Source of the DNA: Plumapathes pennacea
Taxonomy: Eukaryota > Cnidaria > Anthozoa > Antipatharia > Myriopathidae
Direction of reading: 5' to 3'
DNA: 64,000 nt
Assembly: GCA_964036295.1 (NCBI GenBank)
Contig: OZ038465.1
Span: forward strand, 6,765,667-6,829,666
Position 1 is the stretch's first letter, and each line of letters opens with the position of its first letter. The translations under genes were made by a program, and so were the position numbers. Under the pieces are notes generated by a model. The model was not told the origin of the DNA and ran no database searches. It saw only the letters and a program-made list of their open reading frames with translations. Shown here piece after piece: positions 3,001 to 62,869 of this stretch.

Positions 3001-6000
3001 CCGTGACCACTTTCAAGGCTTGCCACTACAATTTGTTTGTTTATAACCTCCGGTACACGACCACCTGTGAACCGCGACAGCAACTTTCACAAAATTAGTA
3101 ACAACTTTACAAATAGATTGACCGAACAAAACACTAACAAGTGTAATTAGAAGTGACAACAAGACAAAAGGTTGATACATTCTACAAGCGACCTCATTTT
3201 ATAACCTGTAGTGACGGGGGAAACCGAGAGTTGCGGAAGGTTCCACTGTCACTGCGTAATTTCTGTTGCATAAAGTCAAGTTATTTTTGTTTTTACATTG
3301 CCCACTAAAGACAGATATCGGCTCTTTCAAAAAACACAATGTACCTTCCTTATCAAAATTGACGTAATCGATTCAGAAAACCAACAAAATCCCTTCTATA
3401 TGTACACATTATCAATGATCATGTATCTATCATGCACGTGTGATTCTTAACACATCTAGAATATACTATCCACCGCATTTTCATGGGAATCTATAGTTTC
3501 CTGTTAATTATTTATGTCTCATTAGTGCCCTAGATTCATTCTGAGTGACTGCCATGCTAAGTTAAGTATGCCATGTGTTCAGCTTGAGAGGTTACTAAAC
3601 TGAAAAGATGATTTTATGGAAGGTAAGATTCTCAGACTAAAGGACAAAACTACCGAGAAATATTGCTAAGAACGCTCAAACAGGGCAAGTCTTTGTCATA
3701 TAGTGTTGAGTAGGCCGGGACGCTCTGTGATACGTTCGTTTATATGTACTAACGCTTTAGTTAACTTTACTCGTAAACGCAGAGAATATACTGCGATGTT
3801 AAATATTTTTATGTGACGGGTATTAAAACCCACGAAATGTGCTCCAAAGAAGGCAAGGAATCTATACTGATGAAAATGTACCCGAATGATTTGAATCGTA
3901 AATATTTTATCAAAACTTGTGGCAGTTTAGATGCAGCATTTCCCCCATTTTTAAGCGCTTATATCACAGACACAATGCCTTGGCTATACTTTCTACCGTC
4001 AGCTTAATCGAGCACGCTTTTCTGTGATTGTTGAAAAAGGGAAATGCAGAATGATGATAAAATGACAAAATGGAAGAGCATGAAATAGTACCAGGGGACG
4101 ATCGCAAGCATTTAAATATATCTGATAAAACAATGTAAAAGTTCCTGATTGAAACAAGCTTTCTGTTTCTAAATTTTCACTCACGCGAAGGTAATCAGGA
4201 AGCTCATGATTGCAATGCATAACGTATAACGCCACGATACGGAAAAGGGGATTGGGTCCGAATTACGATTCGCAGAGATTTATGGGATCGTTGCAGTGGA
4301 CGTGGAAGCCATTTTGTAGTAGAGTGAAATATATGACTGAATCAGGATCGAACTGAGAGGCTCAAGGGATCGTACCTGAAAGTGATGGCAAATGTGTTCT
4401 GCTCTGCTTCGGTGGACCGAGAAGAATCTTGTGTTGTTCGAAGCAAGTTAAAACTGCCATTCGTACCTCTTATTTCTGTTTATACGGTCACTGGGAAGAC
4501 ACCAAATTATGCGTCCGGCGTTGTGTTTCTGTGGTCACCTATTTTCTTTATTCTTCTTTCTATTATCTTGCCCACATGCATTAAACTTGTTCGAAACACC
4601 TGTAACGATCCCAAAAAGCCTCGCGAGAGGAAATTCGGACTCAATCCCCTTTCGTTTCTGAAGTAGCAGTCAAGCCTATAGATTTTATGCCAGGCTGCGA
4701 ACCCCGCGGTGGAGTCCACAGTTGTTGACCACTGCTAGCGACTATCCAACTTGTAGAATGATTCAATTTGAGATGTTTAGGTGCTGGGGCTTGATCAGGT
4801 ATTCGCCTAACATGCAGATTGTTGCAAGGTGACATGTCCACAACAAGAAGTTTAAATTTAATTTTTCATCTACAGGTCAGTTTGATAATAAACTTGGTGC
4901 TGTGCATCACGTACCAAGTGGCCGTCGCGCCAGGAGGTCATTGGGGAGGTAACTCATAGAATGCCAAACTGATGACGTCACAAAGATCTTTTTATAAAAT
5001 AATGGATTTTGTCCAAATTTCGGAATAGCCTATCTCAAAAAGTTCACACAGCTGAAATATGGGCTTTTGAAGTTTGATACTAAACCTCCTGTTTTGATGT
5101 CGGTACCTATGATTTAGAACTGACGCTAAATTAGAGAGTTTAGTATGGGACTATCTGGAAGTTTAAACTTCTGTAACTTTGCTTTCAGAACACGTTCTTG
5201 CAGCAGCTGGTTATAACCCATGATGGGTTTAGAGGTTCGAATTTTCCAAAATGATGACGGCACACTTTGTCCCTCTATTTTCTCTTTCAAATGAGTCACA
5301 TTATATATGACCTTATACGGTTTTGTAGACAAGTACCTAGCTGACCCCGACTACGCTTAGCCTTGAACTCCCAAGAGCGATCAACCTAAATTTTCTCTTT
5401 CAGTTTCTAAACAGATTTATATCAAACAGTGAGGAGAACTTGGCTTTTGATACCTTGCTCAGATGAAAACTGATTAAACTATCAACTCGTCACGTCCCTC
5501 ATACATTTTCTTCTTAAAAGTTGAGAGAAACTGTATTTTGGTCTTGGGAGGTTTAAGTTTAATTTGGACGGAAACATCGAAGCAAAATGATTCAACAAAT
5601 TATATTCACAAGGCAGAAAACACTAAACCGGCTGACTAGGTCAAAAAATAAATAAAACTTATCAAAGTTTTATCGCGAGTAACGACCAACAATAAAGGCC
5701 CTTCCAATCAATGCTATTAGCTTAGTTTTTTAGGGATCCTTTTATATAGATATATTTATAGTAAGTCATTCAGTTACGTCATTTATAGAGTAGGTTACTT
5801 ATTGCCGTTATTATTTAATATCATTAAAATAAGTCAGGTCATTACCACTGTTATCATTACCTTTTATTGTTGTAGATGTATTAGGTTAGTTTAGGAATCC
5901 CTTTTACATAGATATATTTATAGTATGTCATTCAGCTAGGTTTCATTCATTACTATAGTAGATCATCACTACTATATTGTTAGCTTGTAGATCTTACTGT

Positions 6001-6160
6001 CGCAGATGTATAGCTGCTCTATAGATAAGCTGCAAATAAACCATTATTATCATTAATATTATTATTAAATTAAGTTACTGTAGAAGGTCATCACTAATAA
6101 TATTATTAGGTATTTTTATATTTACCGTTGCAGATGTATAGCTACTCTGTATATTACTTC
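1..6160. other. AT-rich 5' region, no supportable gene
   Basis: No open frame here has recognisable domains or plausible splice context. Short simple repeats occur: (AAT)n near 1013-1031 and (CAA)n near 1849-1868. A degraded member of the CTTTCACTCCCAAGA inverted-repeat family lies at 5361-5553. The signal-peptide exon of the downstream receptor gene should be here or outside the window, but I could not identify it. Confidence 0.6.
5720..6140. repeat. Locally duplicated AT-rich repeat segments
   Basis: A segment of about 50 bp, containing TAGATATATTTATAGTA and ending GTCATTCAG, occurs at 5720-5772 and again at 5886-5936. A second motif, GCAGATGTATAGCTACTCTG, occurs near 6131 and 6496, with a diverged copy near 6000. 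The stretch ending at 6060 reads like a retroelement 3' end with an ATT-rich tail. These copies bracket the truncated EGF exon copy at 6168, so local duplication is the likely history. Confidence 0.6.
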
Positions 6161-6167
6161 TGCATTT

Positions 6168-6251
6168 AGGCGGAAGTCCTTGTGCAAGTAATCCATGTCA
6201 AAATGGCGGTACCTGTGAAGAACACGGCCATGGCCATCATAAATCTTAAAT
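6168..6251 (+). pseudogene. Truncated duplicate of the EGF exon
   Basis: After a plausible acceptor (TTTAG) the phase-1 frame reads through PCASNPCQNGGTC, nearly matching the first half of the intact EGF exon at 6914. It then hits a His-rich stretch and a stop (TAA) at about 6249 before the last cysteines, with no donor site. It is best read as a partial, non-functional copy of the EGF exon, 0.7 kb upstream of the intact one. A retained cryptic exon is possible but would truncate the protein. Confidence 0.65.
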
Positions 6252-6283
6252 AGTAAAGCACCCCAAACATCACTAATAAAATC

Positions 6284-6305
6284 ACTATCACTAATATCAT
6301 CATCA

Positions 6306-6340
<35 letters not shown>

Positions 6341-6393
6341 ATCATCATCATCATCATTATCATCAACATCATCATCGTCATCATTATCATCAA

Positions 6394-6431
<38 letters not shown>

Positions 6432-6440
6432 ATAAAATCA
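6284..6440. repeat. (ATC)n / (TCG)n microsatellite
   Basis: About 150 bp of TCA and TCG triplets with a few interruptions. It yields a spurious Met-rich open frame on the minus strand. Confidence 0.95.
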
Positions 6441-6913
6441 CTAAAATCACTAAATCACTAATAAAACTATTAGCTATTTTTTATATTTTACTGTCGCAGA
6501 TGTATAGCTACTCTGTATATTACTTCTGCAAGTTACAGTAGCTAAATAGTAAATCACTCCAAACTGAGGAAAGTTGTTGATTTACTAGCAAATTTATTTA
6601 GAAATTTAGACTGCCATATAAACTCTAAGCTTCCAATAACGGTACTACCGGGACAATCGTGTCGGTTAATATTGAAAATTAAATAAAAGATCGAGCAACA
6701 AAGAAAATGCATTCAACGTCCTTCCAATCCGATAACAAGTAAATTCTCATAAATGGGGTTTCACAAACAAGGAAAGTAAATTTAATCGACCGACTGAAAT
6801 CTTGCTCATAAAAACTCAACCTGGAAACTAGATGAAAACCAAACCATGTTAAACACTTTAGATAAGAATACTGTACAGCCAACAAGAATATTCTCATTTG
6901 CCTTCGATTGCAG

Positions 6914-8746
6914 TTGATCCATGTGCAAATAATCCATGTCAAAATGGCGGTACCTGCCAAAAACACGGCAATGGAGGAGGTTGGAAGTGTACTTGTCACA
7001 GTGGCTATAGCGGATTCAGATGTCAATACCAGCAACAGCAACAACAGGGACAACAAGGACAAAAAGGTCAACAAGGACAACAGGGACAACAAGGTCAGCA
7101 GGGACAACAAGGTCAGCAGGGACAACAAGGACAACAGGGACAACAAGGACAAAAAGGTCAACAGGGACAACAGGGACAACAAGGACAACAGGGACAACAA
7201 GGTCAACAGGGACAACAGGGACAACAAGGACGACAGGGACAACAAGGTCAACAGGGGCAACAGGGACAACAAGGTCAACAAGGACAACAGGGACAACAAG
7301 GTCAACAGGGACAACAAGGTCAGCAGGGACAACAAGGTCAGCAGGGACAACAAGGTCAGCAGGGACAACAAGGACAACAGGGACAACAAGGACAAAAAGG
7401 TCAACAGGGACAACAGGGACAACAAGGACAACAGGGACAACAAGGTCAACAAGGACAACAGGGACAACAAGGTCAACAGGGGCAACAGGGACAACAAGGT
7501 CAACAAGGACAACAAGGACAACAAGGTCAACAGGGACAACAAGGTCAACAGGGACAACAAGGTCAACAGGGACAACAAGGTCAGCAGGGACAACAAGGTC
7601 AGCAGGGACAACAGGGACAACAGGGACAACAAGGACAACAGGGACAAAAAGGTCAAAAAGGTCAACAAGGACAACAGGGACAACAGGGACAACAAGGTCA
7701 ACAGGGACAACAAGGTCAGCAGGGACAACAGGGACAACAAAGTCAACAGGGACAACAAGGTCAGCAGGGACAACAAGGTCAGCAGGGACAACAGGGACAA
7801 AAAGGTCAACAGGGACAACAAGGTCAACAAGGACAACAGGGACAACAAGGTCAACAGGGACAACAAGGACAAAAAGGTCAACAAGGTCAACAAGGACAAA
7901 AAGGTCAACAAGGACAAGGACAACAGGGACAAAAAGGTCAAAAAGGTCAACAGGGACAACAAGGACAAAAAGGTCAACAGGGACAACAAGGTCAACAGGG
8001 ACAACAAGGTCAGCAGGGACAACAGGGACAACAAGGACAACAGGGACAAAAAGGTCAACAGGGACAACAAGGACAACAAGGTCAACAGGGACAACAAGGT
8101 CAACAGGGACAACAGGGACAACAAGGTCAGCAGGGACAACAGGGACAACAAGGTCAGCAGGGACAACAAGGTCAACAAGGACAACAGGGACAAAAAGGTC
8201 AAAAAGGTCAACAAGGACAACAGGGACAAAAAGGACAACAGGGACAACAAGGACAAAAAGGTCAACAAGGACAACAAGGTCAACAGGGACAACAAGGACA
8301 AAAAGGTCAACAAGGTCAACAAGGACAAAAAGGTCAACAAGGACAAGGACAACAGGGACAACAGGGACAACAAGGACAACAGGGACAAAAAGGTCAACAA
8401 GGACAACAAGGACAACAGGGACAACAAGGTCAACAGGGACAACAGGGACAACAAGGACAAAAAGGTCAACAAGGACAACAGGGACAACAAGGTCAACAGG
8501 GACAACAGGGACAACAAGGTCAACAGGGGCAACAGGGACAACAAGGTCAACAGGGACAACAAGGACAAAAAGGACAACAAGGACAAAAAGGTCAACAAGG
8601 ACAACAAGGCCAAAAAGGTCAACAGGGGCAACAAGGACAAAAAGGTCAACAAGGACAACAAGGCCAAAAAGGTCAACAGGGACAACAAGGACAACAGGGA
8701 CAACAAGGACAACAAGGTAAACAAGGACAACAGGGACAAAATGGAG
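6914..8746 (+). CDS. Exon: EGF-like domain plus proline-free Gly-Gln-Gln collagen-like tract
   Basis: Phase 1-1 exon of 611 codons. The first ~36 residues form a six-cysteine EGF domain (DPC, NPCQNGGTC, WKCTC, GFRCQ). From about 7030 to the end the protein is Gly-X-Y triplets, overwhelmingly GQQ with interspersed GQK, single GRQ and GKQ triplets and a closing GQN. No proline occurs in the tract. Breaks are few: one Gly-to-Ser change (QQSQQ near 7740) and two register slips (GQGQQ near 7915 and 8345). The triplet register is kept across ~570 residues, which argues for selection on Gly periodicity. Whether it folds as a triple helix without proline is unknown. Confidence 0.85.
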
Positions 8747-11700
8747 GTATTTTAACGGAGAAACAGTATAGAAGAATATATAGAAGCAGTATATTCCGAT
8801 ATTTGGTTGAACACTTGACCGAGTTAAGTTTGTGGTCTTCTGGCATCAGGACCATTTAAATAGCACTGAAAGTGAACACTACGTGTTACGCGATTTGCTG
8901 TAAAAGAAAGCGTCAAAGAAAATACTATCTATATACTACAGCCTCCTAACTATATTTTGTAACATTGATGCTGTGATTTCAGTAGCAGCAAGAATGACAT
9001 TTAACTATCTTTTAAAACTTGGATTGCCGCCAATGCACTCAAAAAAATTATTCAGGTTGGATACCACATGTAGAGGGTTTGCACGACGGCCATGTTGTAT
9101 GGCAGGAACATAGCAACAGCATTTATTTTGTCCAACATGGCCGCCGTGCAAACCGTCTATTGCGTACCCACAGGTATCAGAATAGTCATCTATTTATTCG
9201 GTGATGTTTTAAGTATACAGTATCCATGTTGACCTCTTCTAGTTCCATATGGCATGCTATTCAGATGTATTTACACTTCCAAGTCAGACGGCATCTGATT
9301 ATCATGACAACCCGCTCTCGAATCTTAATATCTTTCCTCCGCAATAGTTACTACTTCCTTCCGTGCATACACCACGCAATTAATATTGTATTACTGGCTT
9401 TCAATCTAATGTCAACCGGGTCCGGCACCATGGAAATAAATTTTCGACCGTGCGATTACCTTATTTTCCATGTTATAACGATACGCTTTAAAATGAAACA
9501 AACTTGTTAGTTGTAAAGTATTCGTCAGGTTGGAAAGGAAATTCAATCAGCCGGTGAAACGCTTGCTTTTTCGAAAAGACAGAAATACAACCAGAGTTTT
9601 ATTTCTCAGTAGCATATGTGATCGGCAACCAACAAACACATTTTATCTCTTCACAAATCGTCTGAGGTATAATCATATGAAATTGCAAATGATTAAATGA
9701 CGATGCAGTAGTCATGTCAAACTCTTTCGCCATAACAGGTCCTTGCACGCGCAATGACATCATTGAGTTAAGGGAAGCGGATCGATCCATGACGTCACAC
9801 AGTGTAGGCCCCTATCTGTGTGATGGTGGAATGGACAAAACCAAGTGGTTTAGATTCAGTGGAGATGCTGGAACAGCGATGGCAACTGCTTGTGGATCAG
9901 GGGCAGGTCGGTGCAGAACAAATATTCCTTCATGGCTTCAAGGTGCACATCCGCAGTATGAAGATGGTATAGTGAGGAGAGAAGTGTGCTGGGTTTATGG
10001 TCAGAACTGTTGCATGTGGAAGAGTGATATGAAAGTTCGCAATTGCAGTGGCTTTTACATCTACAAAAAAATTGAAGCTTACGAGGCATGCAGTCAAAAT
10101 TGGTACTTCCGGTTTTGTGGAAATGGTTTACGAGGTAGGTTTTTCTGACCTTTTTATCTGCACTTGGTTCATTTCTTTTTATCAATTAACTCAGTTAGCC
10201 CTACATATCTGAATCTTGAATAATACACATTTAATCTATCAAATCAACAAGGTTGTGGATGGGATTTCCAAATTCGTTTTTTGCCGTCTAATCGATATAA
10301 AATTTCGGTTGGAAATGCGCTTTAAACATTTATAATCAAAGGCACATCTTTTCAGCTCAGCTCAGCTCAGTCAAAATTATCACAGAAAAATTAGCTGAAA
10401 TTCAGGTCCAGTGGCTCAAGATCTATCTTTTAAATTAACTGAGGTTTTTAATGTCATTCCCAAAGTTGTTTTCACGTGTTTCGACATAAAATGAAAAAGT
10501 GAATAGTATTAAAAAACCCATAAAAGTTATAGTAAAATAGTAGAAATCTCTTCCGTAACACTTGTGTTATGGTGCATCATGAGCATGCGAAAGTCTTTCT
10601 GATGAGAAAGAAGGTTCACCTAACAATTATTCGGTGTGAGCCATAAAACGAGTATATTTTCAGGTAGTCAAAAAGGGCATTGCTTTGTCCAAATATTGGT
10701 GTTTAAAGGCAATGGTTCGGAAATCTAAACGGAACCTCGCCGCACAGATTTCTCATGAGTAATCCTTCTCAGCTTCCTTTTCGCAACTGTCGCTCCAAAT
10801 GCATTAATAATTTCAAGGTGATCGACTTGCAATAAGGACCAATAACTGGGCTGATAATGGCTTGACGTCGTAATTCTGTCTTTGTCGTCGCCCTTGTCCT
10901 TTTTTCGTATCATGAACAATTGCCAATGAATAACGTTTTCGTGCTTTCGAAAGCATAAAGACTTTTTAGAACGAAAAAAAAAAAAAAGCCAATTGTACCA
11001 AACAATGTAGCACAGAAGTATGTTTCATAAAATTCGCTCCATTCACATGCAGGCCTTTTTCGATCCCTTGTGGCTCGTTATAGATCGACTTTGTTTTCAG
11101 ATCCATGTGCAAACATCACTTGTCAAAATAACGGGAAATGTTCACAAGACGGAAATGGAAACGCATACTGCAGCTGTGGACCAAATTACAGCGGAGATCG
11201 ATGTGAGATTCCTGTCATGGTGACATCATCTATGCAGCCTACTGCAGTTGCCTCCTCCCCTAGCGGTGTCTTCAGTTCCACGACTGGAATATCCCCATCC
11301 TTTAGCGGTGTCTTCAGTTCCACAATTGGAATATCCTCATCCTCTAGCGGTGTCCTCAGTTCCACGACTGGAATATCCTCACATCGAAGCGCAGTTGTTC
11401 AAAGTACTACAACCGCCATTACTGGTGCAACTGGAACCGCCGCAATCAAGGTGACGCCAACCAAAAAGGTTTCCAGTACCCAAGGTTCTGCTGCTGCTGG
11501 CCAGTCATCTGCTGTATCTACAGCAGTTCTAAGTATGTTTACACTCGCGAATACTTTTTGTTTCCAACTTAGATACAATAAATACAAGTGCAGATACGGA
11601 CAAAACTTACACAAGATAACTGAGCAGTCAACTTGCAACTTTTATCTGATTTAATCCCATTTTAAACTAAATTCAAGTCACATGAAAATATTAATAAAAA

Positions 11701-14700
11701 AAATTCAAAGCAAATGCAAATCACAAAGCTTCTTAATTCGCCACCTTTCAATGCTCTTATTCACTTTACGACCTAAGATCACTACAGAACTAGTCTTTCT
11801 TTTTTACATGTAATTTATAATATTATGATTTATAAATGATACACAATAGTGTTGTTTTATTAGTTATAATACTAGCTGGACCCCCGTAAAATACGGGGAA
11901 GTGTTTTTGCAATTTCTGATTTGTTCTGTTTTTGTTTTTGTTTTTGTTTTGTTTTTTTTTCTCAGTTCGGAAACGTCATGCTGGCATGACTGAACCAAGA
12001 AAATATTGAAATACAAATCAAAAGAAAATATTTTATGTTGAACGATGCTGTTCACAAATTCAGAAAGGACATTTCGATTCGGCCATATAGCGAGAAAATA
12101 TCATTCCACTTTATTTCCGACTATTAACAGAATGCTTGTTGATGGAAATGCCAAGATTTTTAACGAGACTCTTTCACTCGCATGAGTGAGCCTGGAAAAG
12201 AGTGTTACAGACACACAGACGGACGCTTAGCATATTATTAATAGATGTATTTTGTCTCTTCATTTAAAAATAAGAAAACTCTGAAGAATGGAGCAGTTGG
12301 ACCCAGTGCACTACATCCTGTGGATCTGGAGTGGAAATGCGCACGCGCATTTGTAACCGGCCCATGCAAAGCGTTAGTGCTTCAAACTGTTCTCAGAATG
12401 AGACACGTGCATGTAACACATTCCCCTGTCCAGGTTTGTACACCCATTACTGGATGCGTTAGCGAGTTTTTAGACATCACACAAGTTCACATTGTACAAG
12501 GTAGCACTTTTTTCATCCATACATTTTTTTTATAAGTACCTCGATTTTTCTGATAGTTTGGGATTTGCATATAACTCTATATTTTCAGATTAGGTCCGAT
12601 GTTATTCGGTCTAAAATTACTTTTGAATGAGTTCATTCTCAATAAATGCAGTGTTTTATTTTACTTAGTATTTCGCACAGACGCTTTCAGGACAAGTTCA
12701 ACCTTTCATGCACCTCATCTCGCAAGCTTTCGCAATGATCGTAAAATATCATGACTTTCTCAGTTACGAAAAATATGACGTTGCTATGGCTTCATTTTAT
12801 CCCGGACTTATTTGGCCGCAGTTGATGGAAAGTGGACTCAATGGTCACCATGGACGTATTGCAACAGACCGTGTGGAACTGGGCACGAGAAAAGAGAACG
12901 GTCGTGCACAAACCCCCCTCCACTGCATGGTGGGAAAAACTGTGAAGGAGACAGCAAACTAACGAGGGACTGTAACACAAAAGAATGTCCAGGTACAATT
13001 GGGACACATAAAAGTAAACAGCCAAAGAATCACACTAAGCAATTAGCAATATTCTATTTACGTTTGGTACTGGGAGAAAGGCAATTTCCAAAGTTGTTAG
13101 TGCTTCTGTTTCAAAACGAGGTATAGTGCAAAACATTCTATTTAAAATTAGAATCATTAAAATTTAAATCATTTTTGTTTTGCTCAGACTCTTTCACGGC
13201 GTCCAGTTTTCACACATCGACCCTTAGTCGATCCAAGTTATGCGATTTCACCACTCCGACGCAGTCAATCTAGTTCTCTTTTAGGACTTACTCTCATATG
13301 AATATGTTGTAGCAGGCCTCGTTTTGAAAGCGAGGAAAAAGCTATAGCTCGAAAATAGTCTATTTGACATAATAGCTGTAAAATAGGGTAAGGATCACGC
13401 TTCGTGTCTTAGCCAAATACAAATAAACACTGAACTAGTAACATTTCAAACAGTCTCTCTCGATGAACAAGCATTTTAAAACAAAGCTGACTGAAACTTT
13501 TATTACCATTGACTGAAACTTCTGCAGAACAGTTCAAAACTTTGATTGCCAAGATTTATCTATGTAATACCATAAGTTGTCGTTGTTAATGCTTATACAC
13601 ATTAGTATCTGATGGGCGACCATCTTAAAATTGGAGTTAGTGTTGTTCACATATTGTGCTTATTTTTTCAAATGCCTTGCAAGTATTTTCGTTTATAGCT
13701 GTAGTGTTTCTTTTCTCTCATCATGACTATTATTGCCCTCCTATGCACAGCTTCAGAAGTCAAGTACACTGTTCGCCTTCGCGACGAAACATGGGTTGAC
13801 GATCTTAAATACCCCAACCATTCTGCTTGGCAAGAACAAGAATCCAAAGTGATACACAGCGTAAGGTTCTCTATGTGCAATGCATTTCCTTGATGGTTTC
13901 CTTGTTAAATATCAGAGGAATGTCAGCCCATGTATGTTCCTATAGAGGGTTTGCACGGCGGCCATGTTGGATGACAGGAACAATAAAATACTTTTCCATA
14001 ACAATAGCATTTCTTTCCCAGAGGACTGAATTCTACTGTTCCTGCCATCCAACATGGCCACCGTGCAAACCCTCTACTGTTTTCCGTAACCTTTTTGCAC
14101 TTTTTAGAATTTGAGAACTATCAGAGGGTTCATTACTAAGATTTCCTCGTTAATTTGCCTGCTCCTGTGTTCTTAAATGCGCATAAGCCCCCATCCATAG
14201 ATAATCGTCAAATGTTCAAAATATAATGAAATGTGGTCCATTCTGGCTAAGCTACCTACAACAAGGGACAAAAGTCTTGGGATATTCGGCTCAATTTACA
14301 GCAAATAATATATCATCCAATTTTCCTGCCCAAAGCAAATGTTGCAGGATGTAGAGTTTATGTTCAAACTACAAGCAACAACGTACAGTGGGAAGGGAGA
14401 GGTGACAAAATGACATATATGTGAAATGTGCACTTTTTGGTACGTGTCCCATAAACGTTTGACTCGATCGTGGTCAACTTGGTTAGGGGAACTACAGGGG
14501 CTGCAGGGGAGAAGTGCTAAATTTCGAGAAATTGCTGTAGAATTCAATACAATCTTTAAAATAATACGCATGTTCAATACGTGTTCGAGTGGTACTCAAA
14601 AGTTTCCTCCTTAATTTCAGGTGACGCAACTTTATAACAGTCTGGGATACACAGAAATTGCCGTCATAGTTCTTGGATTCCGGTATATCACAATGTTCTT

Positions 14701-17700
14701 TTCATTTTTAATTTATATAGAGCGGTTTTCGGATGACTGTCGAAAGTAATCGTGTTATTGCTTTGGTTTTGCGTTTGCTACGCTTTCCGGTTGGTCCACA
14801 CAAGTTTGGCAGCATTTTCAACCAATCAGGAACAAAACCAAAACCAAAACCAAACACTACTCACGCAAGCGATGGCGTGTACTCGCACTGCTGATTGGAA
14901 AGTAAAACCAAACGCAAGACCAAACGTGAATTACTTTGGCTTCTGATTGGCTGAACTGTTTTCTCTCAGTCTCTGTGATTGGCCTGTGTGATTACTTTGA
15001 TTTTGGTTTTCGACAGTCATCCGAAAACGGCTCTATTTTTTATGCTAACGTTACATTTGCGTCCACTAAAACAGCGGGTGTGAGACAGACAGGCAGAGAC
15101 AGGGTGACAGAGTTTGATAACTTCCGGTGGTGCTTCTCAGAGACGAACGTACTGAATGCTTTTTTCTCTTTCATTTTCTTTTTGCAGTAAAGGAAGTGTC
15201 GTTTCCGTGTTTAATGTTAGCTACCCGGCAGTGGACACCTTACAGATTGTACATATCCAGGAAGATGTTATCAATAAAGGAAAGCTTGGTGATATGTCCG
15301 CGGAAATAACAAGCATAACCACCAATAACGGTACGCTGTTAGGCAGTTACCTTATTTATAACACAATCGTTAATATCAATCAAATCGTTCAATACTGCAT
15401 TTGTTTTGTGCGTAATATTTATAGCGTTTTAAAGCAAGTGCAATAACCCATTTATAGTATGGCCATAGCCAATGTCAAACGTTTCCTTGTGGTTCTTTTG
15501 GGCATGAAATGTCCGTGTCAGTCACTGAATTTTCGATAGCTCTTATAAATGTATAGCGTTTTAATTGTGTTATGTTTTAGACAAAGAAAACTGTCACACA
15601 ATCATTGACATGTGTTTGGTTAAACAACAATAGGAAACTACCGTAAATGCTCTAATGAGCTCCCCCCCCCCCCCTCTCTCTAATAAGCCCCCCTTTACAA
15701 GGTCAAATTTCGAAATAAGCCCCCCTTCCCCGATTTTCATCCTGTAGACTTTGAGCACCAAAATTAGTTGAGAAACAAGACAAATGACACGCATTAGATG
15801 CTTGGTGATATATTTTTGAACTTTATATTTCCTACCAAAAATACAGTTCCTCCTGTTGTCATCTAATCTTTTTAATGCCCCCTCTCCCTCCCCCCCCCCC
15901 CCCCCCCCCCAAACACAGGCAGACAGACAAGTTTATTAGAGCGCCTTGTTACGGGTGACGTACATAGGCAGTATCCTCTCTAATATTCCAGGGCTTATAG
16001 TGTTTATGAGCTGTTGTCTAATTTTAAAACATTCATAGATATATTCTGCTATTTGTGCCGCGTATTTTTCTGGTGTTATCAGTTTAGTTAAAGTTGTACT
16101 CCTTCCAGTCTAGGAACCGGAAGAGGGCCTCCCTTTTTTCTTTGTATGGTTCATGCAATTAGGAAATGTTTCTCATCCTCCATCTGTCGGCATTGGGGGT
16201 ATGTCCTTAATTCAGGGCTTACATAGTTTTTCCGGTCAATGTTTAAATGAGACCCCCCCCCCCCCCTTCCCCCGTAGGCCTATTAGAGCATTTACGGTAT
16301 GTCAGTAGAGTTCGTTGGAACAATATGCTAAACTTGATAAACAATAGAATTTCATCTTCACAGTTCCGAACGAGGTGCCAGTGATCCTCGAGATTCGCAA
16401 CAGCACCTCGACCAGCGTCTACTTAAAGTGGACCCCCGTCAACGATACCAATGGCGCTCCTTTGCGCGGTTACACCATCTTTTACAAGCCGAAAGCAAGT
16501 CAGGCATTTGTGATTGAATCATTGAAATCTGTGAGGCCCGATGTGACCGAGACGGAGGTGGACAAACTAGAAAAATATTCCAATTACACTTTTCGAGTTC
16601 TGGCTTTCACGGAAAATGGGAATGGAGTGTCAAGTGAACGAAGCCTCGTGCTGACGGATGAGGACGGTGAGCCGCGTATTTAGAAACGGAAGCAATATGC
16701 TTATTAATTCTAGATATTTCTCAGACGTTTCTGAGACTGTTGGGTTACTTAAATATGGGCATGGTTCGTGTGTCTTATTTCCGTCCCTTACTAAAAAGTG
16801 GGTGAAGGTATAGCCGGGTTTTTTCATCGACTTTCAAATCCCGAAAACCAAGGAGATTACAATGCCAATAAAAAAAAACACACACTTTTACTAACCAGAA
16901 GACAAGTAAGTTGTAATTGCTTTACTTCTGGACAACAGACCAATCAGAGTACTTGCTTTTAGAGTGGGCAGAACGCAATCAGACGAACTCATTCGTCATT
17001 CGAACGTCATTCGCTCTGACGAAGGGCTAGCGCTCGAAACGTCAGCTATTGTCTCTTTGACGGCGTTCCATTACCCTCATCAACACTTAGTTGATACACC
17101 AGTTCGTCTTCCGCCACGCCGACGCAGTCAACCTAGTTCTCTTAAGAGCTGGTATTACACAGAACGCAATCAGGTTTGCTTTTGCTTCTTAACGCGCAGC
17201 CAAACTGGTGGGGGACCAATCAAAACACGCTGCAATCACATGCACAATTGATTTCGACATGTCATCCGGAAAACGTTCTAAGAATTCTCCATTTTCTTTT
17301 TTTTTTTGTTCGGTGCCAAAGGGTATAGTCGACTACTGAGAAAAGTTAGATGGACTACTAGAGCAAGAGAAGTGAGGAAGAAACGAAGTACTAATCTTTA
17401 AACACAGTTCGGATGAATAGTGCTTTTTGACTGATATACATTTGATCAGTAAGAGCGCAACATTTACAAAAATTTGCTTTGTAATTCTTTAGTTCCAAGT
17501 GAATGGCCACCCAACCTAAAAGTAGAAGCTATCAGTTCTACTGATATATCGGTTACCTGGCAACCAATGGACCAAGCCCACGTTCATGGAATACTGTTAG
17601 GGTATAACGTGACGTACGCTCGAGAGGATGTAACGCCCTTATCTTGGGAAACCAAGACTCTGGCACCATATCAACACATGGCTGATCTACAAGGTCTTAT

Positions 17701-20700
17701 CAAATATACCCCCTATGTTGTCAGAGTGTGTGCTTTTACCTCAAAAGGCTGTGGGAAAACGAGCGTGAGCCACGAAAAAACATTTGCTGACAGTAAGTAA
17801 AGTTTAGCATAGAGATGTTGAACCGCTTAGACTTGTGTTGTCAGTGTTACAGTACGTATCTCCTTTGGTTAAGAGTTGCCGTTTGAACAGCTTCAGCTCA
17901 AGATACAAATAGCTTAATTATCTGGGATGAACAACATGAAATACGGCGACGATGAATGCAATTTTCGCAGTTATGAAGTTGACCAACGAAAGTGACGTCA
18001 AGAACGTGTTTCCGCGGTGTCTTTGAAACTTTTAAACATCACAGTATACTAGAATGCTACGACCTGATATGAATGGAATACTAATTTCCCACAAAATCCT
18101 CCTCACTCTACAAAACACTGTTACATTATAAATCACTGTTACATTAAAACGAAGTCAGAGCACTATAGAATTGTAATTTTTAATCTGTACAGTTCCAACT
18201 ATGCCCCCAAGCAATTTTAAGATCATCAACCTCACATCATCCACTGAGATCCAAATTAGCTGGGGTCCAGTTCCTGCGGGGGAACTTAATGGCGACCTTC
18301 AAAGCTTCACAATTGCCTATAAGCTGTTACGATTATCGGACCAAGACGTGGATGGAGAGCCAGAGCAAAGAGTTACAGTTCCAGCAGCGAGATTGTCACA
18401 TGCGTTACAGGTTGGACCATTTGGCTTGTACCAGATCAAAATCGCTGCCTCCACTCAAAAAGGGCTTGGTCCTTTCAGTGAATACTTGAGCGCAGGTAAA
18501 TGTTCGGAAAGACGTGAATGCGAATACTTTGTTATTGGTCACGAACTGCAGTAATGTTGTAGTATTTTTAGGGCCTGTTCACTGCACTACAGGCATTTGG
18601 TTAGATGAATCCGAGATCGGTTCAGGCTATAAATGAGAACCGCGAGTGTTTACAACAACGGTCTAAAGAAAAACTCCATCATGCAAATGAACGCGTTAGT
18701 GGTACAGTGTTATCTGCATAGGCAAATTTAAGGTGCTTGAATACATTTCCGGTGTTATTGAGCAAGTTTTGCTCTTTTAAAGTATATTTCCCCTAGTTTT
18801 CTACAAATATGTTCTCAATTTCAGTATTATTATAACTTCCTTCACATACACGAAGCCGTACCGTAGGTCCTTTACTAGTAAGGCTTATAACATTTGGTAT
18901 AGTATCACAAATATTTAATACTAGTAAGGTTATATTAAAACAAGGGTGCTTTCTCCCTGAGGGTTTAAACATTTCAAATGTATTGACCCTTTAATTACAG
19001 AAAGCTGTCGATGCCCTAAAGATCTGTACACAAACTACTGGCTTCATCCGCCCTACCTGAATCAATCGAAAGATGGCAATATAGGTGGAATTTTCCCCGA
19101 AATCGTTGTCGATATGGTGCGATGGGCTTGTGGAGAATGCACAAACGGTTACAAGAAGACAACCATCCATCTGGAATCTAACGGAGCGGGCAACAACGCA
19201 TTGAAAGAAAGCTCACAGAAAACTGTGAAGGACATTGATGACGTCCCACAGATAAGTTTCCCGATCTATGGAAACAAATACATGACTAAATACATGGGTA
19301 CTTACGCCTACATCTTCCTTGTAGAGTCCCCAGGGGTAGCTTTTGTCGCAGGCAAGCCTCCAGCTGGAACCTCTGCAAAGGCCATGATAGCGTCTGTGTT
19401 TGCTTGCTATCCTCTTATCCTCTTCACCATCGTCCTGGCCAGCATCTCAGGAATCGTAATGTGGGCGCTGGTGAGTAAGAATCATAATCAACATACACAC
19501 AAGCAAAGTTTGTTGAAACCGCCTTTTAACCCTTGGGTTCCTGAGTGACCAACTTCCTCTTGTCACTCTACCATCATATACAGACAGTGTAGAAAAGTTG
19601 GTTCTTGATCACTTAATTAGATGGAAAACGATTGAACTATGAACTCCCAATCCATCCCTCATACGTTTTGTTTTGACAGATAAATCGAATGCAGTGGTCT
19701 TCTCTTTTTCCTGCAACTTTCACTAAACGCTTTATAACACCAAAACTTGCTTGTAATTCATATCCAAAGACCGTCTCCTAGGTTTAATAAAATCAAGCCT
19801 GTCTATAGCGACCCTAACTACTACCACAGTATAGACATAAATTTTTTATCCATATTGTCTCAGGAATACAGGACAAATCCTGACCACTTTCCAGCATCAT
19901 TTCCGAAAGGAGCAGGCGAAGGGTTTTGGTGGTCCTATATCACCATGACGACGGTGGGGTAAGTGTCTGTGTCGACTTTAATGTTCAGCCGGCTGTTTAT
20001 GGAAATAAACGTTAGCATTTCTTTTTTTTTTTTTTTTTGCTGTTCTCAATTGTCAGGTATGGAGATAGAGCTCCTGTTACGATACTTGGGCGTTTGTTCG
20101 GCGTTGTGTGGACTCTCGCTGGACTGTGTATCATCTCTATGCTGACTGGATCGATTGCTACGTCACTGACCACAGTCAGCGTGGACCAAGACATCATGTT
20201 ATACGGCTCTGAGGTAAACGTAGCAGATAACAAAGATCCCCTCCTCTCCCCCTAGATAGATAAGTGCAGTACGTGTAGTGTGGGCCTAGATGGGGTTTAT
20301 TCTTGTTATGGGCCTGAATTTTTTATTGTTAAGTGTTATGAAGCCAAAAAAATTAATGTTAAGTGTTATGTAAAAAAAAAAAGACATAAAACAAGACAAG
20401 AGGCTTAGATGGGGTTTAGTGTTTTTATAGGCCTGAATTTTTTACTGTTAAGTGTTATGCAGACCCCCGCCCCATCTAGGCCCTCTGTACTCAAACACAT
20501 ATAATAATAATCCTATACTGGCCGTCTAATTTAACAGATAGCTGCTATACAAAACTCCGTGGAATTTCGCCTAGGAATACTTATGAATGCCAAAGTTAAC
20601 ACAAGTAAGTGAAGTTCGTATTTTTTCGAGGGTGGGAGGTTATTCGAGGATTTGCGGTATCTAGACTGCTTATTATTAACTTCATTGTTGCAATAACAGA

Positions 20701-21897
20701 GTACGAGTACAAGAGTATCGAAGACATACGCAAGGCCCTGTTGAGCAGAGAGGTGGAAGGTGCCCTCATCGACACCTACGTAGCGGCGGAATACGGTGAC
20801 GTTATCTTCAAAGACGGCATCAAGGTCAATAAAATGCTGGATAGGTCATTTGGCTATGGTGTTGTCTTATCAGGACCGGCGGTGTATGTCAAAAAGCAAT
20901 GCCGAGACTACATTGCAAATAGAATAGGCTGGATATACAAGATCATAGAACAGAGAACCAAAACACTAAAAGTAAGTAACGTACATTTAGTAATATGCTA
21001 GGCTTTTCGCCTAGTGTATGTGTTTGAACTATTTTTGCGCTATTAGTGATACATCGGAAGCTGTTTGGGAAAGAAGACTATTTTTATGCTGAATATGTAT
21101 ATTTAGTTATATTTGCTCCCGGAAATGAAGCGATCGGGATTTGTGAAACAATGAAAGTTTTGTCTAACAAACTTATATGTATTCCGCCTTTTCAATGGGC
21201 GGCTAATCAGATAACAGTGACTGTGAAAACAAATTAATAATGACCCTCCCCATCCTCGTTTTTTTAAGAACCCAGAAGATGGTGGAGGAGAAGAGAGCAC
21301 AGGCTTATTCGATGCTGCTTCGCCACAATTTCAAACCACACTCTTTTCTCTGCTTGGAATGTTGGGTGTTCTGGTAATTGGAGGACTGTCCTGGCATTTC
21401 ATGTTTTACATTCCTCGCAAAAAGAATCACGAGAAGAGGGGTAAGTATTCTGGGGTGCAACGCAATTTTTTGAAAGGCTAGCGAGAGACTGACACCATAG
21501 CCCTTAAACGCTAGGCCCTAATTTTCTCAACCTAACCTGACTTCAAGACGTACACCATAAATGCTCTAATATGCCCCCCTCTACAAGGTCAATTTTTGAA
21601 ATAAGCCCCCCTCCCATTTCCCCTATTTTCACGCCTTCGCTGTGAGCACCAAAATTAGTAGAGAAACAAGACAAACGACACGCATTAGATGCGTTGTTGG
21701 TGATATATTTTCGAACTTTACACTTCCCACATCTAAGTTCACGTTGTAGTTTGTTGACCAAGAATACGCAGTATCTCTTGTTGTTATCTTATCCTTTTTA
21801 AATAAGCCCAATTGGGTTCCCTGAGAGCTCCTGCTCCTATCTATCAACTCTAAAATAGAAACACTCTTGTAAAAATATCTTCAATGGGGCAAATAAA

Positions 21898-21961
<64 letters not shown>

Positions 21962-22463
21962 ATTAATGTTCGTCGCTTCGGTCCTTTTCTTATCATCAGT
22001 TGCTGAAAGGAGAAACTCCACGCCCTTAGTACAGTACCGTGAAAACCTGATGGAAGAAATGAGAAACCTGGTGACGGAATTCCATTCCAGTTTGTCCTCG
22101 ATAATGAACGACAAGGCCCAAATCCACGCAGCACAACAACTGAAGGTGCTGAATCGCAGCCACAAAGGGAAGCGGAACGAACCTGAAAGTTCAGGAAACA
22201 GTCAATCCATATTGTTTACGAAGAGGAAGTCTTCTGTAAGCCCATCAGAACTATCAAGCTCCCACACGTCGGCATGGAATCCTCGTGAAGAGTCGATAAT
22301 TGAGGACCTTGAACTAGAAACTCAGCAAGTAGAAAGCGAAGACGGAGCCAACACGAGGAAAAAATCAGCAACTCTGTCCGTTGATTCCCAAATCAGCGCT
22401 CCACGCTCTCTAACACACATCAGGTTGTCTTCTTCAGAGCTGGAGACTTCAGCATCCACATGA
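6914..22463 (+). CDS. Chimeric adhesion ectodomain / K+-signature ionotropic receptor (5' partial, 18 exons)
   Basis: Predicted membrane receptor-channel of at least 1969 residues. Exons: 6914-8746, 9739-10134, 11101-11532, 12275-12433, 12822-12992, 13751-13860, 14621-14682, 15188-15330, 16364-16666, 17493-17792, 18193-18495, 19001-19470, 19864-19958, 20057-20213, 20538-20604, 20700-20971, 21269-21440 and 22000-22463 (stop). Every junction is GT-AG and all phases agree to the stop codon. Most ectodomain modules are single phase 1-1 exons, typical of exon shuffling. Domain order: EGF, Gly-Gln-Gln tract, D8C, EGF plus Ser/Thr linker, TSP1, TSP1, SEA, FN3 x3, ligand-binding lobe S1, M1, pore loop TVGYGD, M2, lobe S2, M3, cytoplasmic tail. 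The topology is that of ionotropic glutamate receptors with a potassium filter, known from cyanobacterial GluR0 and rotifer AvGluR1. The matrix-like ectodomain is the odd part. First exon(s) and signal peptide are not found. Two adjacent genes cannot be excluded without transcripts. Confidence 0.8.
7030..8740. repeat. 9-bp-based coding minisatellite (GGACAACAA / GGTCAACAG)
   Basis: The Gly-Gln-Gln tract is encoded by near-identical 9-bp units with synonymous variation (GGA or GGT, CAA or CAG) and AAA for the Lys positions. It also creates long spurious open frames on both strands. Length polymorphism between alleles is expected. Confidence 0.95.
9071..9159. mobile_element. Short MITE, TAGAGGGTTTGCACG family
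   Basis: Inverted ends TAGAGGGTTTGCACG...CCGTGCAAACCGTCTA enclose GGCCATGTTG-type subterminal arms. Length is 89 bp. It looks like an internally deleted relative of the 134-bp copy at 13943. The ends fit a TA target (TA|GAGGG...). It lies in an intron of the receptor gene. Confidence 0.85.
9739..10134 (+). CDS. Exon: D8C (uromodulin-type eight-cysteine) domain
   Basis: Phase 1-1 exon of 132 codons. Landmarks of the D8C family seen in uromodulin, GP2 and OIT3 are present: WFRFSG, CRTNIPSWLQGAHP, DGIVRREVCW, the CC pair (NCCMW) and NCSGFYIY. Such domains lie outside the cell, often in matrix or zona-type proteins. The exon joins in phase both to the GQQ exon upstream and to the EGF exon downstream. 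Confidence 0.85.
11101..11532 (+). CDS. Exon: second EGF-like domain and Ser/Thr-rich linker
   Basis: Phase 1-1 exon of 144 codons. The EGF module (DPCANITCQNNGKC, YCSCG, SGDRCE) has six cysteines. It is followed by about 100 residues rich in Ser, Thr, Gly and Ala, likely an O-glycosylated stalk. Within the linker a 42-bp unit coding SGVFSSTTGIS-type residues is repeated three times (about 11258-11382). The acceptor is TTTTCAG and the donor is TAA|GTATG. Confidence 0.85.
11258..11382 (+). repeat. 42-bp coding tandem repeat, three copies
   Basis: Unit starts TAGCGGTGTCTTCAGTTCCA. The three copies differ by a few bases and keep frame (14 residues each). It is part of the mucin-like linker. Confidence 0.9.
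12275..12992 (+). CDS. Two exons: tandem thrombospondin type 1 (TSP1) domains
   Basis: Exons 12275-12433 and 12822-12992, both phase 1-1. Each has the TSP1 signature: WSSWTQCTTSCGSG with later NCSQNETRACN and FPCP, and WTQWSPWTYCNRPCGTG with later KNCEGDS and ECPG. Six cysteines are present in each, and the W-x-x-W mannosylation motif occurs in both. The first exon could instead start at 12287, since both acceptors keep frame. Confidence 0.88.
13751..15330 (+). CDS. Three exons: SEA domain with GSVVS cleavage motif
   Basis: Exons 13751-13860, 14621-14682 and 15188-15330 (phases 1-0, 0-2, 2-1). The product starts YTVRLRDETW, contains a helix ending GFRKGSVVS and continues with FNVSYPAV. G-S-V-V-S on the strand after the first helix is the autoproteolysis site of cleaving SEA domains (MUC1-type GSVVV). 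It predicts a two-chain ectodomain split N-terminal to the FN3 repeats. Cleavage is inferred from the motif only. Confidence 0.78.
13943..14076. mobile_element. MITE, TAGAGGGTTTGCACG family, 134 bp
   Basis: Terminal inverted repeats of roughly 35 bp, TAGAGGGTTTGCACG... against ...CGTGCAAACCCTCTA, flanking a short unique core. Same family as 9071-9159. It lies in an intron inside the SEA-coding region. Confidence 0.9.
14717..15036. mobile_element. MITE with GAGCGGTTTTCGGATGACTG ends
   Basis: Left end ATAGAGCGGTTTTCGG... is matched in inverse by ...CCGAAAACGGCTCTAT at the right, with the GACTGTCGAAA/TTTCGACAGTC inner arms also paired. The core carries repeated TGATTGG and CCAAAACC motifs. A diverged copy lies at 43216. 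The ends are compatible with TA target duplication. Confidence 0.85.
15639..16299. mobile_element. Non-autonomous element with TACCGTAAATGCTCTAAT termini
   Basis: Terminal inverted repeats TACCGTAAATGCTCTAAT...ATTAGAGCATTTACGGTA bound 661 bp with C-rich homopolymer tracts near both ends and no coding capacity. Related fragments occur at 21550-21850 and, inverted, at 36695-36800, both sharing the internal ACCAAAATTAGTAGAGAAAC type sequence. Confidence 0.85.
16364..16666 (+). CDS. Exon: fibronectin type III domain 1
   Basis: Phase 1-1 exon of 101 codons. FN3 landmarks: VYLKW strand, LRGYTIFYK, YSNYTFRVLAFTENG. Two or more N-glycosylation sequons are visible (NST, NDT, NYT). Confidence 0.88.
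17014..17141 (+). repeat. Dispersed repeat with GACGAAGGGCTAGCGCTCG core
   Basis: Contains GACGAAGGGCTAGCGCTCG followed by AAACGTCAGC, and downstream CGCCGACGCAGTCAACCTAG. The first block recurs inverted at 42322-42362, and the second block recurs at about 13240-13284. A dispersed family is clear, but its class is not. Confidence 0.7.
17493..17792 (+). CDS. Exon: fibronectin type III domain 2
   Basis: Phase 1-1 exon of 100 codons with ISVTW, ILLGYNVTY and YTPYVVRVCAFTSKG landmarks of the FN3 fold. Confidence 0.88.
18193..18495 (+). CDS. Exon: fibronectin type III domain 3
   Basis: Phase 1-1 exon of 101 codons with IQISWGPVP, LQSFTIAYK and YQIKIAASTQKGLGPFS landmarks. It directly precedes the ligand-binding exon. 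Confidence 0.87.
19001..19470 (+). CDS. Exon: ligand-binding lobe S1 and first membrane helix (M1)
   Basis: Phase 1-0 exon. It encodes a periplasmic-binding-protein-like S1 segment (WLHPPYL, GIFPEIVVDMVRW, then VESPGVAFVAG), followed by a hydrophobic helix ending VMWAL before the donor GTGAGT. In animal glutamate receptors S1 normally carries a PLTIT..RE-like stretch whose Arg binds the ligand carboxylate. I see no equivalent here (ISFPIYGNKYMTKYM instead), so the ligand may not be glutamate. Confidence 0.72.
19864..20213 (+). CDS. Two exons: K+-channel-type pore loop TVGYGD and M2 helix
   Basis: Exons 19864-19958 and 20057-20213. The product reads GFWWSYITMTTVGYGDRAP, then a helix LFGVVWTLAGLCIISM and LTGSIATS. 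TMTTVGYGD is the canonical potassium selectivity filter. The intron falls inside the filter's first Gly codon (GG|G), and the filter is only restored by splicing. The placement between S1/M1 and S2/M3 is the iGluR pore topology, not that of a voltage-gated channel, and no S4-type charged helix is present. Confidence 0.88.
20282..20483. mobile_element. Intronic inverted-end repeat GGGCCTAGATGGGG
   Basis: Starts GGGCCTAGATGGGG and ends CCCCATCTAGGCCC. A ~55-bp segment with TTAAGTGTTATG is directly duplicated inside (about 20282-20341 and 20402-20460). Non-coding, MITE-like. Confidence 0.65.
20538..20971 (+). CDS. Two exons: ligand-binding lobe S2
   Basis: Exons 20538-20604 and 20700-20971. Landmarks of the second lobe of PBP-like/iGluR domains: RLGILMNAKV, VEGALIDTYVAAEY (an Asp in the place where iGluRs put the acidic residue that binds the ligand amino group) and RSFGYGVVL. 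They follow M2 and precede M3, as in glutamate receptors. Confidence 0.8.
21269..21440 (+). CDS. Exon: third membrane helix (M3)
   Basis: Acidic linker (NPEDGGGEES), then FQTTLFSLLGMLGVLVIGG and WHFMFYIP, ended by a basic stop-transfer cluster (RKKNHEKR). The basic side marks the cytoplasm. Confidence 0.82.
21550..21850. mobile_element. Truncated copy of the TACCGTAAATGCTCTAAT element
   Basis: Starts TACACCATAAATGCTCTAAT and shares the GCCCCCCT, ACCAAAATTAGTAGAG and CGCATTAGATGC blocks with 15639-16299. The right terminus is not found. Confidence 0.75.
21900..21965. repeat. (ATT)n microsatellite
   Basis: About 20 ATT units after CAAATAAAATT, in the last intron, possibly a retroelement tail. 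Confidence 0.95.
22000..22463 (+). CDS. Last exon: cytoplasmic tail of the receptor
   Basis: Phase-1 acceptor ATCAG, 154 codons including the TGA stop. It opens with a charged, possibly helical segment (NLMEEMRNLVTEF) and continues Ser-rich and disordered, with basic-Ser motifs such as KRKSSVS and RKKSATLS that would suit kinases. No known domain seen. Confidence 0.8.
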
Positions 22464-29785: not shown

Positions 29786-38296
<8,511 letters not shown>

Positions 38297-39764
38297 GTTC
38301 GTTGAGTTCCTACAGGCACCTTGGTTCTCGCAACTCGGTTAGTTCGAGTGCCTTCGGAAGTCACTGATGAACGGACTATCTTATAAATGTCACGTTCCCT
38401 AATACTCCTCGTTACAATAACGCTCCAAACGATTCTGTATGCCCCACTATATGCCCTTTGTCAGAAGAGCGCTATATATGGACACAATGCCCATATAAAG
38501 TCAGTGGGCCGTTTTCTCAAACATCCGGCTTCTGTTGTTTTAAATTTGTGACGCAAAGCGAGGCCCACACGAATAAGATCACACACCCAAACCGGCTGCT
38601 GATTATAGTTCCACGAAAAAGCGCTGCGACACCCACTCACAATATGCATATTAAAGTTCCCATGGAGACTGATGGCCGCGGGTGTCACTTAAGCCACAAC
38701 TGTTGTTTCGTTTCCTGTATAAGCACTTCGTTCGGAAGGAAATTGTTGTGCAGATAAGCATCGGCACAAGTGTAGATTCCACTAATCTCTACCTGACTTT
38801 TAGCGTCTTTTTCGTTAATTATTCACAGATTTCCGCAACTCGACATCCGAGTGCGTTTATCCGGAGGGGACAGTTAATTTCTGATTTTCATAGTTTTTTT
38901 TTTCCGCGTGAGTCATCACTACAAAGTCTACAGACTATGAACTTGGCCGTCCAACTGCTACTCAAGCGTAAAAATGTCCTGTACTACTGACTGTCATTCC
39001 AAATTTGTGGGCCAATAGCGGATAAGTCAGTTGTATACCGAACAAGTGGTAAACGGAGTTAATAGTGTGACAGCCGAGATGATTTATTGTGTTATGCTGG
39101 TTTCTACAAAGAAAGGAAAATATCAAAGTACCGATTAATCACGTCTGAAAATAGAAATGACATTTATAGGAACGACTACGCATGACTGACTCAGCAGACG
39201 CACCTTCTACCCTCGGGGGAGGATGGGAAGGGTTTCACCCTTAAACAAAGGCTGCTCTTGAGCTACCTACGTAATAGGCCAATTCATGCCAGGGCGAGGG
39301 GGTTAAGGCTGGCTCGCACGGTAAATCAAGCGCAAGAGAATGAAAACTTTTCCATTCTCTTGCGCTTGTGCCTGCGCTTGCTTCACCAATTTTATTGTGT
39401 GAACCGGTCGCTTGCACTTGCGCTTGCTTTACTCGTGTGCCAGCCTTTAGGCGCGCGAGTGACAAGAAAAGGAGATTTCTATAGAGTGCCAGGTTCGTAT
39501 GTGTACTCGGCGAAACGCAATGTTCTGACCTAGCACTCGGCGAAACTCAAGGTTTTCACCTTGTTTACGGCCTGGCTCGAAAATTCTATAACCCTAGAAG
39601 CCCGGGTCTAACCCTACTATCTCTGACTTTGACCGTTTTTTGTTATTATTTAAAGGGAAAATTTCTATCAGTTACCAGCTCAATTAAATACCTATTTTCT
39701 GCGTTCTATCTGGGCTCAGAGACCAAGGCATTTTTGGTAAATTTGAAGAGCTTCGCAGAAAAAC

Positions 39765-61780: not shown

Positions 61781-61845
61781 TTTAGATGAGGCTGTTACAC
61801 TTACACTTACCATTGAAAAGTATTATTAATCATCACTACAGCGGA

Positions 61846-62850: not shown

Positions 62851-62869
62851 TAACCGCCTGGAGGCGGTC

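Follow-up and report, generated by a model that had tools for sequence, protein, structure and literature searches.

A cnidarian gene joining an adhesion-type ectodomain to a channel of the ionotropic glutamate receptor type with a potassium signature

Introduction

In the accessible parts of two reviews, the ionotropic glutamate receptors (iGluRs) named as being of the K+ type are GluR0 (Slr1257), the K+-selective prokaryotic glutamate receptor of Synechocystis, and AvGluR1 of the rotifer Adineta vaga (PMC12332018, PMC11479355). The accessible part of a further paper mentions a K+-type filter for GluR0 only (PMC12226733), and the main text of a survey of metazoan iGluRs contains none of the terms 'potassium', 'GluR0' and 'GYG' (PMC6307864). 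Here we describe a gene of the antipatharian Plumapathes pennacea that encodes an iGluR-type, K+-signature channel bearing an adhesion ectodomain. It lies at 6914-22463 of a 64,000-nucleotide stretch of DNA (hereafter the window, whose numbering we use; C4:6765667-6829666 of a 290-Mb genome in 24 contigs), and its nearest proteins in homologue searches are those of corals and sea anemones.

The window protein departs from each of the closest described systems. According to the accessible part of PMC11479355, GluR0 has no helix after the S2 lobe, whereas the window family has one; GluR0 also lacks an adhesion ectodomain, which the window protein possesses, and binds glutamate, while the S1 arginine is apparently not kept in the window family. 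AvGluR1 is described, in the available text, as having the eukaryotic-iGluR architecture (PMC12332018, PMC11479355), and it is by this description that the window protein is set apart, with adhesion modules where the amino-terminal domain would sit. Cnidarian, hemichordate and annelid proteins, often labelled 'potassium channel domain-containing', share its channel module; unlike the window protein, the short ones have no adhesion modules. Adhesion G-protein-coupled receptors and mucin-type SEA proteins carry a modular adhesion ectodomain and a possible self-cleaving module before their membrane part; the window protein has a similar ectodomain plan, but its effector is an ion channel. A preliminary description of this DNA had regarded the architecture as one not previously described, and this view stands: no description of an adhesion-channel fusion was found in the accessible open-access literature (preprints and most subscription papers lay outside the search), and an account of cnidarian TSP1 proteins with novel architectures names no channel fusion in its accessible part (Neubauer 2017, PMC5446238).

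Results

Gene structure and extracellular modules

The 18 exons between 6914 and 22463 have GT-AG borders throughout, splice phases that agree at each junction and a single terminal stop, and together encode 1,969 residues, in keeping with the exon chain first proposed. In order, the protein comprises a putative signal, EGF, a collagen-like stretch, D8C, EGF, a Ser/Thr stretch, two TSP1 repeats, a SEA-like module, three FN3 domains, S1-M1-P(TVGYGD)-M2-S2-M3 and a tail. The exons are listed below with their basis (a slash marks an exon junction).

4834-4948, + strand: exon 1, putative signal peptide MSTTRSLNLIFHLQVSLIINLVLCITYQVAVAPGGHWG/G with phase-1 donor (sole candidate ATG in 1-6913)
6914-8746, + strand: EGF and collagen-like Gly-X-Y stretch with 156 GQQ and 25 GQK triplets (Pfam Collagen 2.1e-25)
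9739-10134, + strand: D8C, uromodulin-like (exon chain, Pfam)
11101-11532, + strand: EGF and Ser/Thr-rich stretch (exon chain, Pfam)
12275-12433, + strand: TSP1 repeat a (exon chain, Pfam)
12822-12992, + strand: TSP1 repeat b (exon chain, Pfam)
13751-13860, + strand: SEA-like, part 1 (exon chain, homologue alignment)
14621-14682, + strand: SEA-like, part 2 (exon chain, homologue alignment)
15188-15330, + strand: SEA-like, part 3, the motif GFR/KGSVVS straddling the part 2/part 3 junction (exon chain, homologue alignment)
16364-16666, + strand: FN3 a (exon chain, Pfam)
17493-17792, + strand: FN3 b (exon chain, Pfam)
18193-18495, + strand: FN3 c (exon chain, Pfam)
19001-19470, + strand: S1 lobe and M1 (exon chain, family alignment; fold from homologue model)
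19864-19958, + strand: pore helix and first half of the filter, TTVGG/ (exon chain, paralogue exon scan)
20057-20213, + strand: second half of the filter, /GYGD, and M2 (exon chain, paralogue exon scan, profile alignment)
20538-20604, + strand: start of S2 (exon chain, family alignment)
20700-20971, + strand: core of S2 with the conserved acid, GALIDTY (exon chain, alignments)
21269-21440, + strand: end of S2, LFD motif and M3, a post-S2 helix corresponding to M4 in eukaryotic iGluRs (exon chain, family alignment)
22000-22463, + strand: cytoplasmic tail, stop codon at 22461-22463 (exon chain)

The gene probably starts farther upstream than 6914, where the preliminary description had begun it. 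A search of 1-6913 for an initial coding exon, defined by an ATG start, a strongly hydrophobic core and a terminal phase-1 donor, returned one candidate ATG; 10 control blocks of 6.9 kb each returned none. The exon that it opens (4834-4948) is probably the signal-peptide exon preceding the EGF-collagen exon, and joining it to 6914 gives a protein of about 2,007 residues. The interval between the two holds one further feature, found by a tblastn match of the first EGF at 6178-6234 together with reading of the sequence:

6170-6248, + strand: truncated EGF exon relic with a stop at its end

Pfam matches three fn3 (1.7e-35), two TSP_1 (2.2e-18) and D8C_UMOD (1.4e-12) domains on the gene, with the first EGF at 3.7e-6 in the first large exon and the second at 0.0015, under the family cut-off. 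The EGF, D8C, TSP1 and FN3 modules originally listed are thus matched, whereas the supposed GQQ module is a collagen-like Gly-X-Y stretch, since Pfam Collagen matches that exon. All three forward frames are open there, so openness alone is no proof of coding. The SEA assignment fares unevenly: Pfam SEA gives an E-value of just 0.074 over the three exons, but their alignments with Oculina P0128 and P0126, proteins whose precomputed domains include SEA, reach 41% and 45%, respectively, over 103 residues. The module keeps the motif FRKGSVVS, and GS[VI][VI] occurs in 15 of 20 homologues examined. We take this GSVV-type motif to be the self-cleavage site of mucin SEA domains; by analogy with these, it could allow release of the head.

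Continuity of the ectodomain and the channel

The relatives and paralogues of the gene keep it unbroken across 13000-19000, as the single-gene reading had it. LOC144628876 of Oculina (P0128) and LOC5496379 of Nematostella (P0132) contain D8C, TSP1, SEA, FN3 and the channel in the same order as the window; open frames filling short contigs (P0123, P0156) are taken as transcripts. Within the genome, a paralogue at 5.97 Mb (L044), about 0.8 Mb away, repeats the window's order through D8C, EGF2, both TSP1 exons (a and b), two of the three SEA exons, FN3a and FN3b, followed by FN3, S1, pore, M2 and S2 exons (L007); the 4.3 kb of this locus before D8C yielded neither EGF1 nor the collagen-like stretch. 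On C4, at least seven of the 11 loci with an S1 at least 45% identical, the window included, have a same-strand D8C 6-12.5 kb upstream of S1; the searches scored the best 150 of 239 D8C candidates and the best 150 of 647 TSP1 candidates, and the remaining four loci are thus not shown to be without D8C. An exon scan of both strands at 17 loci placed FN3 no more than 1.5 kb upstream of S1 in 13 of them; in 15 it recovered the two halves of the split filter codon, with the donor following the first.

The channel module

The order S1-M1-P-M2-S2-M3 is present in the window gene and in the homologue models, and the TVGYGD of the window protein satisfies the TXVGYG filter of K+-signature iGluRs. At the channel end Pfam reports Ion_trans_2 (1.2e-12), Ion_trans (2.8e-8) and Lig_chan (5.5e-6; 26.7 bits against a cut-off of 30.8), the last of which matches 59 of 60 family members at E<=0.01. 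AlphaFold models of two homologues, rather than of the window protein itself, have the two-lobed periplasmic-binding-protein fold, split by the pore. The Foldseek list for the FN3-bearing model consisted of 50 FN3-containing proteins, and therefore a channel-only homologue was folded and searched. The homologue models match iGluR structures, with GluR0 and bacterial amino-acid-binding proteins as the top matches of the ligand-binding domain (LBD), and the predicted S1/S2 fold is that of the GluR0 and AvGluR1 LBDs and of amino-acid-binding proteins; AvGluR1 was not among the PDB sequence matches to the LBD profile. Ahead of the pore the models have an S1 lobe and a single membrane-length helix, and no S1-S4 voltage sensor. 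The order, the filter and these folds support the idea, put forward at the outset, of a K+-signature iGluR module with matrix modules in front, and the comparison with GluR0 and AvGluR1 suggested with it, made here on the homologue models, gives a matching LBD fold.

Of the 166 fetched proteins, 163 have TVGYGD or TLGYGD as their filter; P0164-P0166, which are three of the 46 matches of a long-protein search with the channel part, look like ordinary channels. The family alignment uses the 120 fetched proteins with a channel stretch of more than 330 residues and a recognised filter, and its most conserved columns include the filter residues, the pore tryptophans and the S2 acid. To judge by this sequence, the channel would conduct K+.

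In iGluRs an arginine of S1 holds the carboxylate of the ligand and an acidic residue of S2 its amine. Of 121 aligned rows, 116 have Asp and five have Glu at the position of the acid, which aligns with an Asp of GluR0. At the place of the arginine a low-confidence profile alignment puts Lys 93, with Lys in 36 of the 121 rows, and the arginine has apparently been replaced in the K+-type family.

Family and distribution

The window gene belongs to a tandem family of 11 related loci on one chromosome (C4). In a tree of S1-M1 exons it falls within a group of 21 rows (support 98/95), the named members of which are FN3 fusions from Actinia, Nematostella, Stylophora, Oculina, Porites and Pocillopora; the tree also contains an eight-locus expansion at 5.98-6.28 Mb of the same genome (100/98). 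The channel family is matched in anthozoans, hydrozoans and one scyphozoan, with short forms in hemichordates (Saccoglossus, Ptychodera, Glandiceps) and annelids (Dimorphilus, Owenia). Other branches bear ectodomains of CUB and Ig, EGF arrays, FN3 arrays with pentraxin or laminin-G, FN3 only, or a lectin with F5/8C. About 13 kb before the window there is a further related S1 exon on the minus strand (C4:6752446-6752916); its filter reads TLGYGD, and FN3 lies upstream of it.

Exchange of heads between paralogues

Compared with the paralogues at 5.98 and 6.05 Mb, the window gene is 95-96% identical in TSP1a DNA (dS, the synonymous divergence, 0.07-0.10) and 84% in D8C DNA (dS 0.22-0.27), while protein identity in S1-M1 is 51-52%; TSP1b DNA is 71% identical to the 6.05-Mb copy (dS 0.85), and S1-M1 DNA 59% identical to the 5.98-Mb copy, with dS saturated. 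The same two paralogues share 91-98% of residues in TSP1b and 90-94% in S1-M1 with the 6.22-6.28 Mb loci, but only 43-45% in D8C; no TSP1a comparison is used for the 6.21-6.28 Mb loci, whose 'TSP1a' rows are the same single exon as their TSP1b rows. A blastn comparison with the 5.97-Mb paralogue delimits the shared tract:

9698-12644, + strand: putatively exchanged head tract, D8C-EGF2-TSP1a with flanking introns

The pieces aligned within it, spanning exons and introns with unaligned gaps between, are 74-86% identical in DNA, four of the five at 84-86%. Beyond 12644 similarity drops to 75% in TSP1b, a single 48-base match in FN3a and little else; identical bases number 141 of 149 in TSP1a and 126 of 163 in TSP1b (Fisher p 9e-6). 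These borders are those of blastn; in a gap-tolerant global alignment identity is 71-85% even beyond the tract, where few bases align. Because the head exons are 84-96% identical in DNA while the channels are about 52% identical in protein, heads appear to have been exchanged between bodies; recombination within phase-1 introns would most simply explain how the outer head passed from one channel body to another.

Within the head, TSP1a (12284-12433) is, by the dS values above, far closer to the paralogues than D8C (9742-10134), an unevenness that may reflect more than one exchange or uneven conversion. About 300 bases at 11900-12200, in the EGF2-TSP1a intron, have no counterpart in the 5.97-Mb paralogue, although their flanks align; the segment may be a mobile-element insertion.

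Other features of the window and the genome

Exons of a novel-type protein kinase C lie on the minus strand at 32041-38338, the C2 domain at 37913-38338 matching PKC_C2 (2.8e-34); of the kinase-like pieces seen by eye near 32041-33712 (minus), two gave no Pfam match at E<=0.01. Two adjoining 42-base minisatellites, of about 24 and 25 copies and with several frames open, occupy 61828-63923. Elsewhere, among the best 150 of 239 candidates scored, D8C exons are abundant on C1, C2, C3, C7, C10 and C11, many of them in tight tandem clusters (e.g. C11:1.06-1.74 Mb). Conventional iGluR S1 exons form tandem clusters at C10:5.01-5.17 Mb and C3:20.75-20.78 Mb, and a PF10613 match at C2:667420 sits inside an uninterrupted iGluR reading frame of 995 residues.

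Discussion

Taken together, the gene structure, modules, family, homologue folds, filter sequence and head exchange make it highly probable that this is one cnidarian gene for an adhesion receptor with an iGluR-type, K+-signature channel as its membrane part. The EGF, collagen-like, D8C, EGF, TSP1, SEA-like and FN3 modules would stand outside the cell, the FN3 stalk running straight into an S1/S2 clamshell wrapped round M1-pore-M2, with M3 after S2. We infer that the head would bind matrix, mucus or a surface, and that the stalk would hold a clamshell closed by some small ligand; closure would open the K+ pore and hyperpolarise the cell, the sensing role originally envisaged. The ectodomain would place the channel at contacts and perhaps pass tension. 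SEA cleavage and the role in the cell are likewise conjectural.

Several observations set limits to this interpretation. The genome has 40 matches to the glutamate-binding S1 family (PF10613), none of which is at a K+-type locus; since this family is undetected and the S1 arginine is apparently replaced, 'glutamate receptor' is not an appropriate name for the channel. Taken by itself, the pore is nearest in sequence to ordinary K+ channels: the 60 solved-structure matches listed consist of K+ channels (or a close relative), with KcsA and voltage-gated (Kv) pores at the top, and the family profile scores 114.3 against a Kv control but 49.2 against iGluRs. A Kv- or two-pore-type channel without ligand-binding lobes, which these scores would favour, is nonetheless hardly credible and was rejected on the predicted fold and the flanking lobes: S1 and S2 flank the pore in both sequence and fold, there is one membrane helix ahead of the pore and one pore per chain, and M1 and M2 share a signal with iGluRs that is absent from the two-sequence Kv control. 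It is very improbable, too, that exon chaining has joined two genes, one for a secreted adhesion protein and the other for a K+-type iGluR. The window model was read from genomic DNA alone, and the channel query, in a search limited to proteins of about 0.55-1.75 times its 411 residues, listed 120 homologues, only seven of them with adhesion domains; yet the fusion is kept in gene models of several genera, the exon order recurs in the 5.97-Mb paralogue, FN3 lies just upstream of S1 at most of the loci read, and the window gene's phases agree at all junctions.

Ligand gating itself is open to a real, though unlikely, alternative, in which the channel is constitutively open or is gated by force through the ectodomain, with the clamshell as a mechanical link. 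FN3 stalks and SEA modules bear force in other proteins, and the window protein has a long FN3 stalk and a SEA-like module; the apparent loss of the arginine and the silence of PF10613 point the same way. On the other side, the S2 acid is D or E in every aligned row, and the clamshell is predicted to be of the kind found in amino-acid-binding proteins. It is improbable that the protein is a non-conducting adhesion receptor retaining the channel fold as a membrane anchor: conduction data were found for no family member, but the near-universal TVGYGD/TLGYGD filter, and the place of filter, pore tryptophans and S2 acid among the most conserved columns, argue against an anchor.

If the gene indeed encodes a K+-signature, iGluR-type channel with an adhesion ectodomain, the addition of matrix modules to an iGluR would be a new means of coupling contact to membrane potential, with no need for a second protein. 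More speculatively, and as a proposal that we regard as doubtful at present, the tandem loci may be contact receptors in which swappable heads recognising matrix or surfaces sit on a conserved K+-channel body, so that recognition of self, neighbour, symbiont or substrate would become a K+ conductance within one protein, and the SEA site could free the head. Through head exchange such a recognition role becomes directly testable. K+-signature iGluR-type channels form a large animal family, with one branch welded to adhesion modules, and iGluR evolution thereby gains a broad K+-type animal branch to test.
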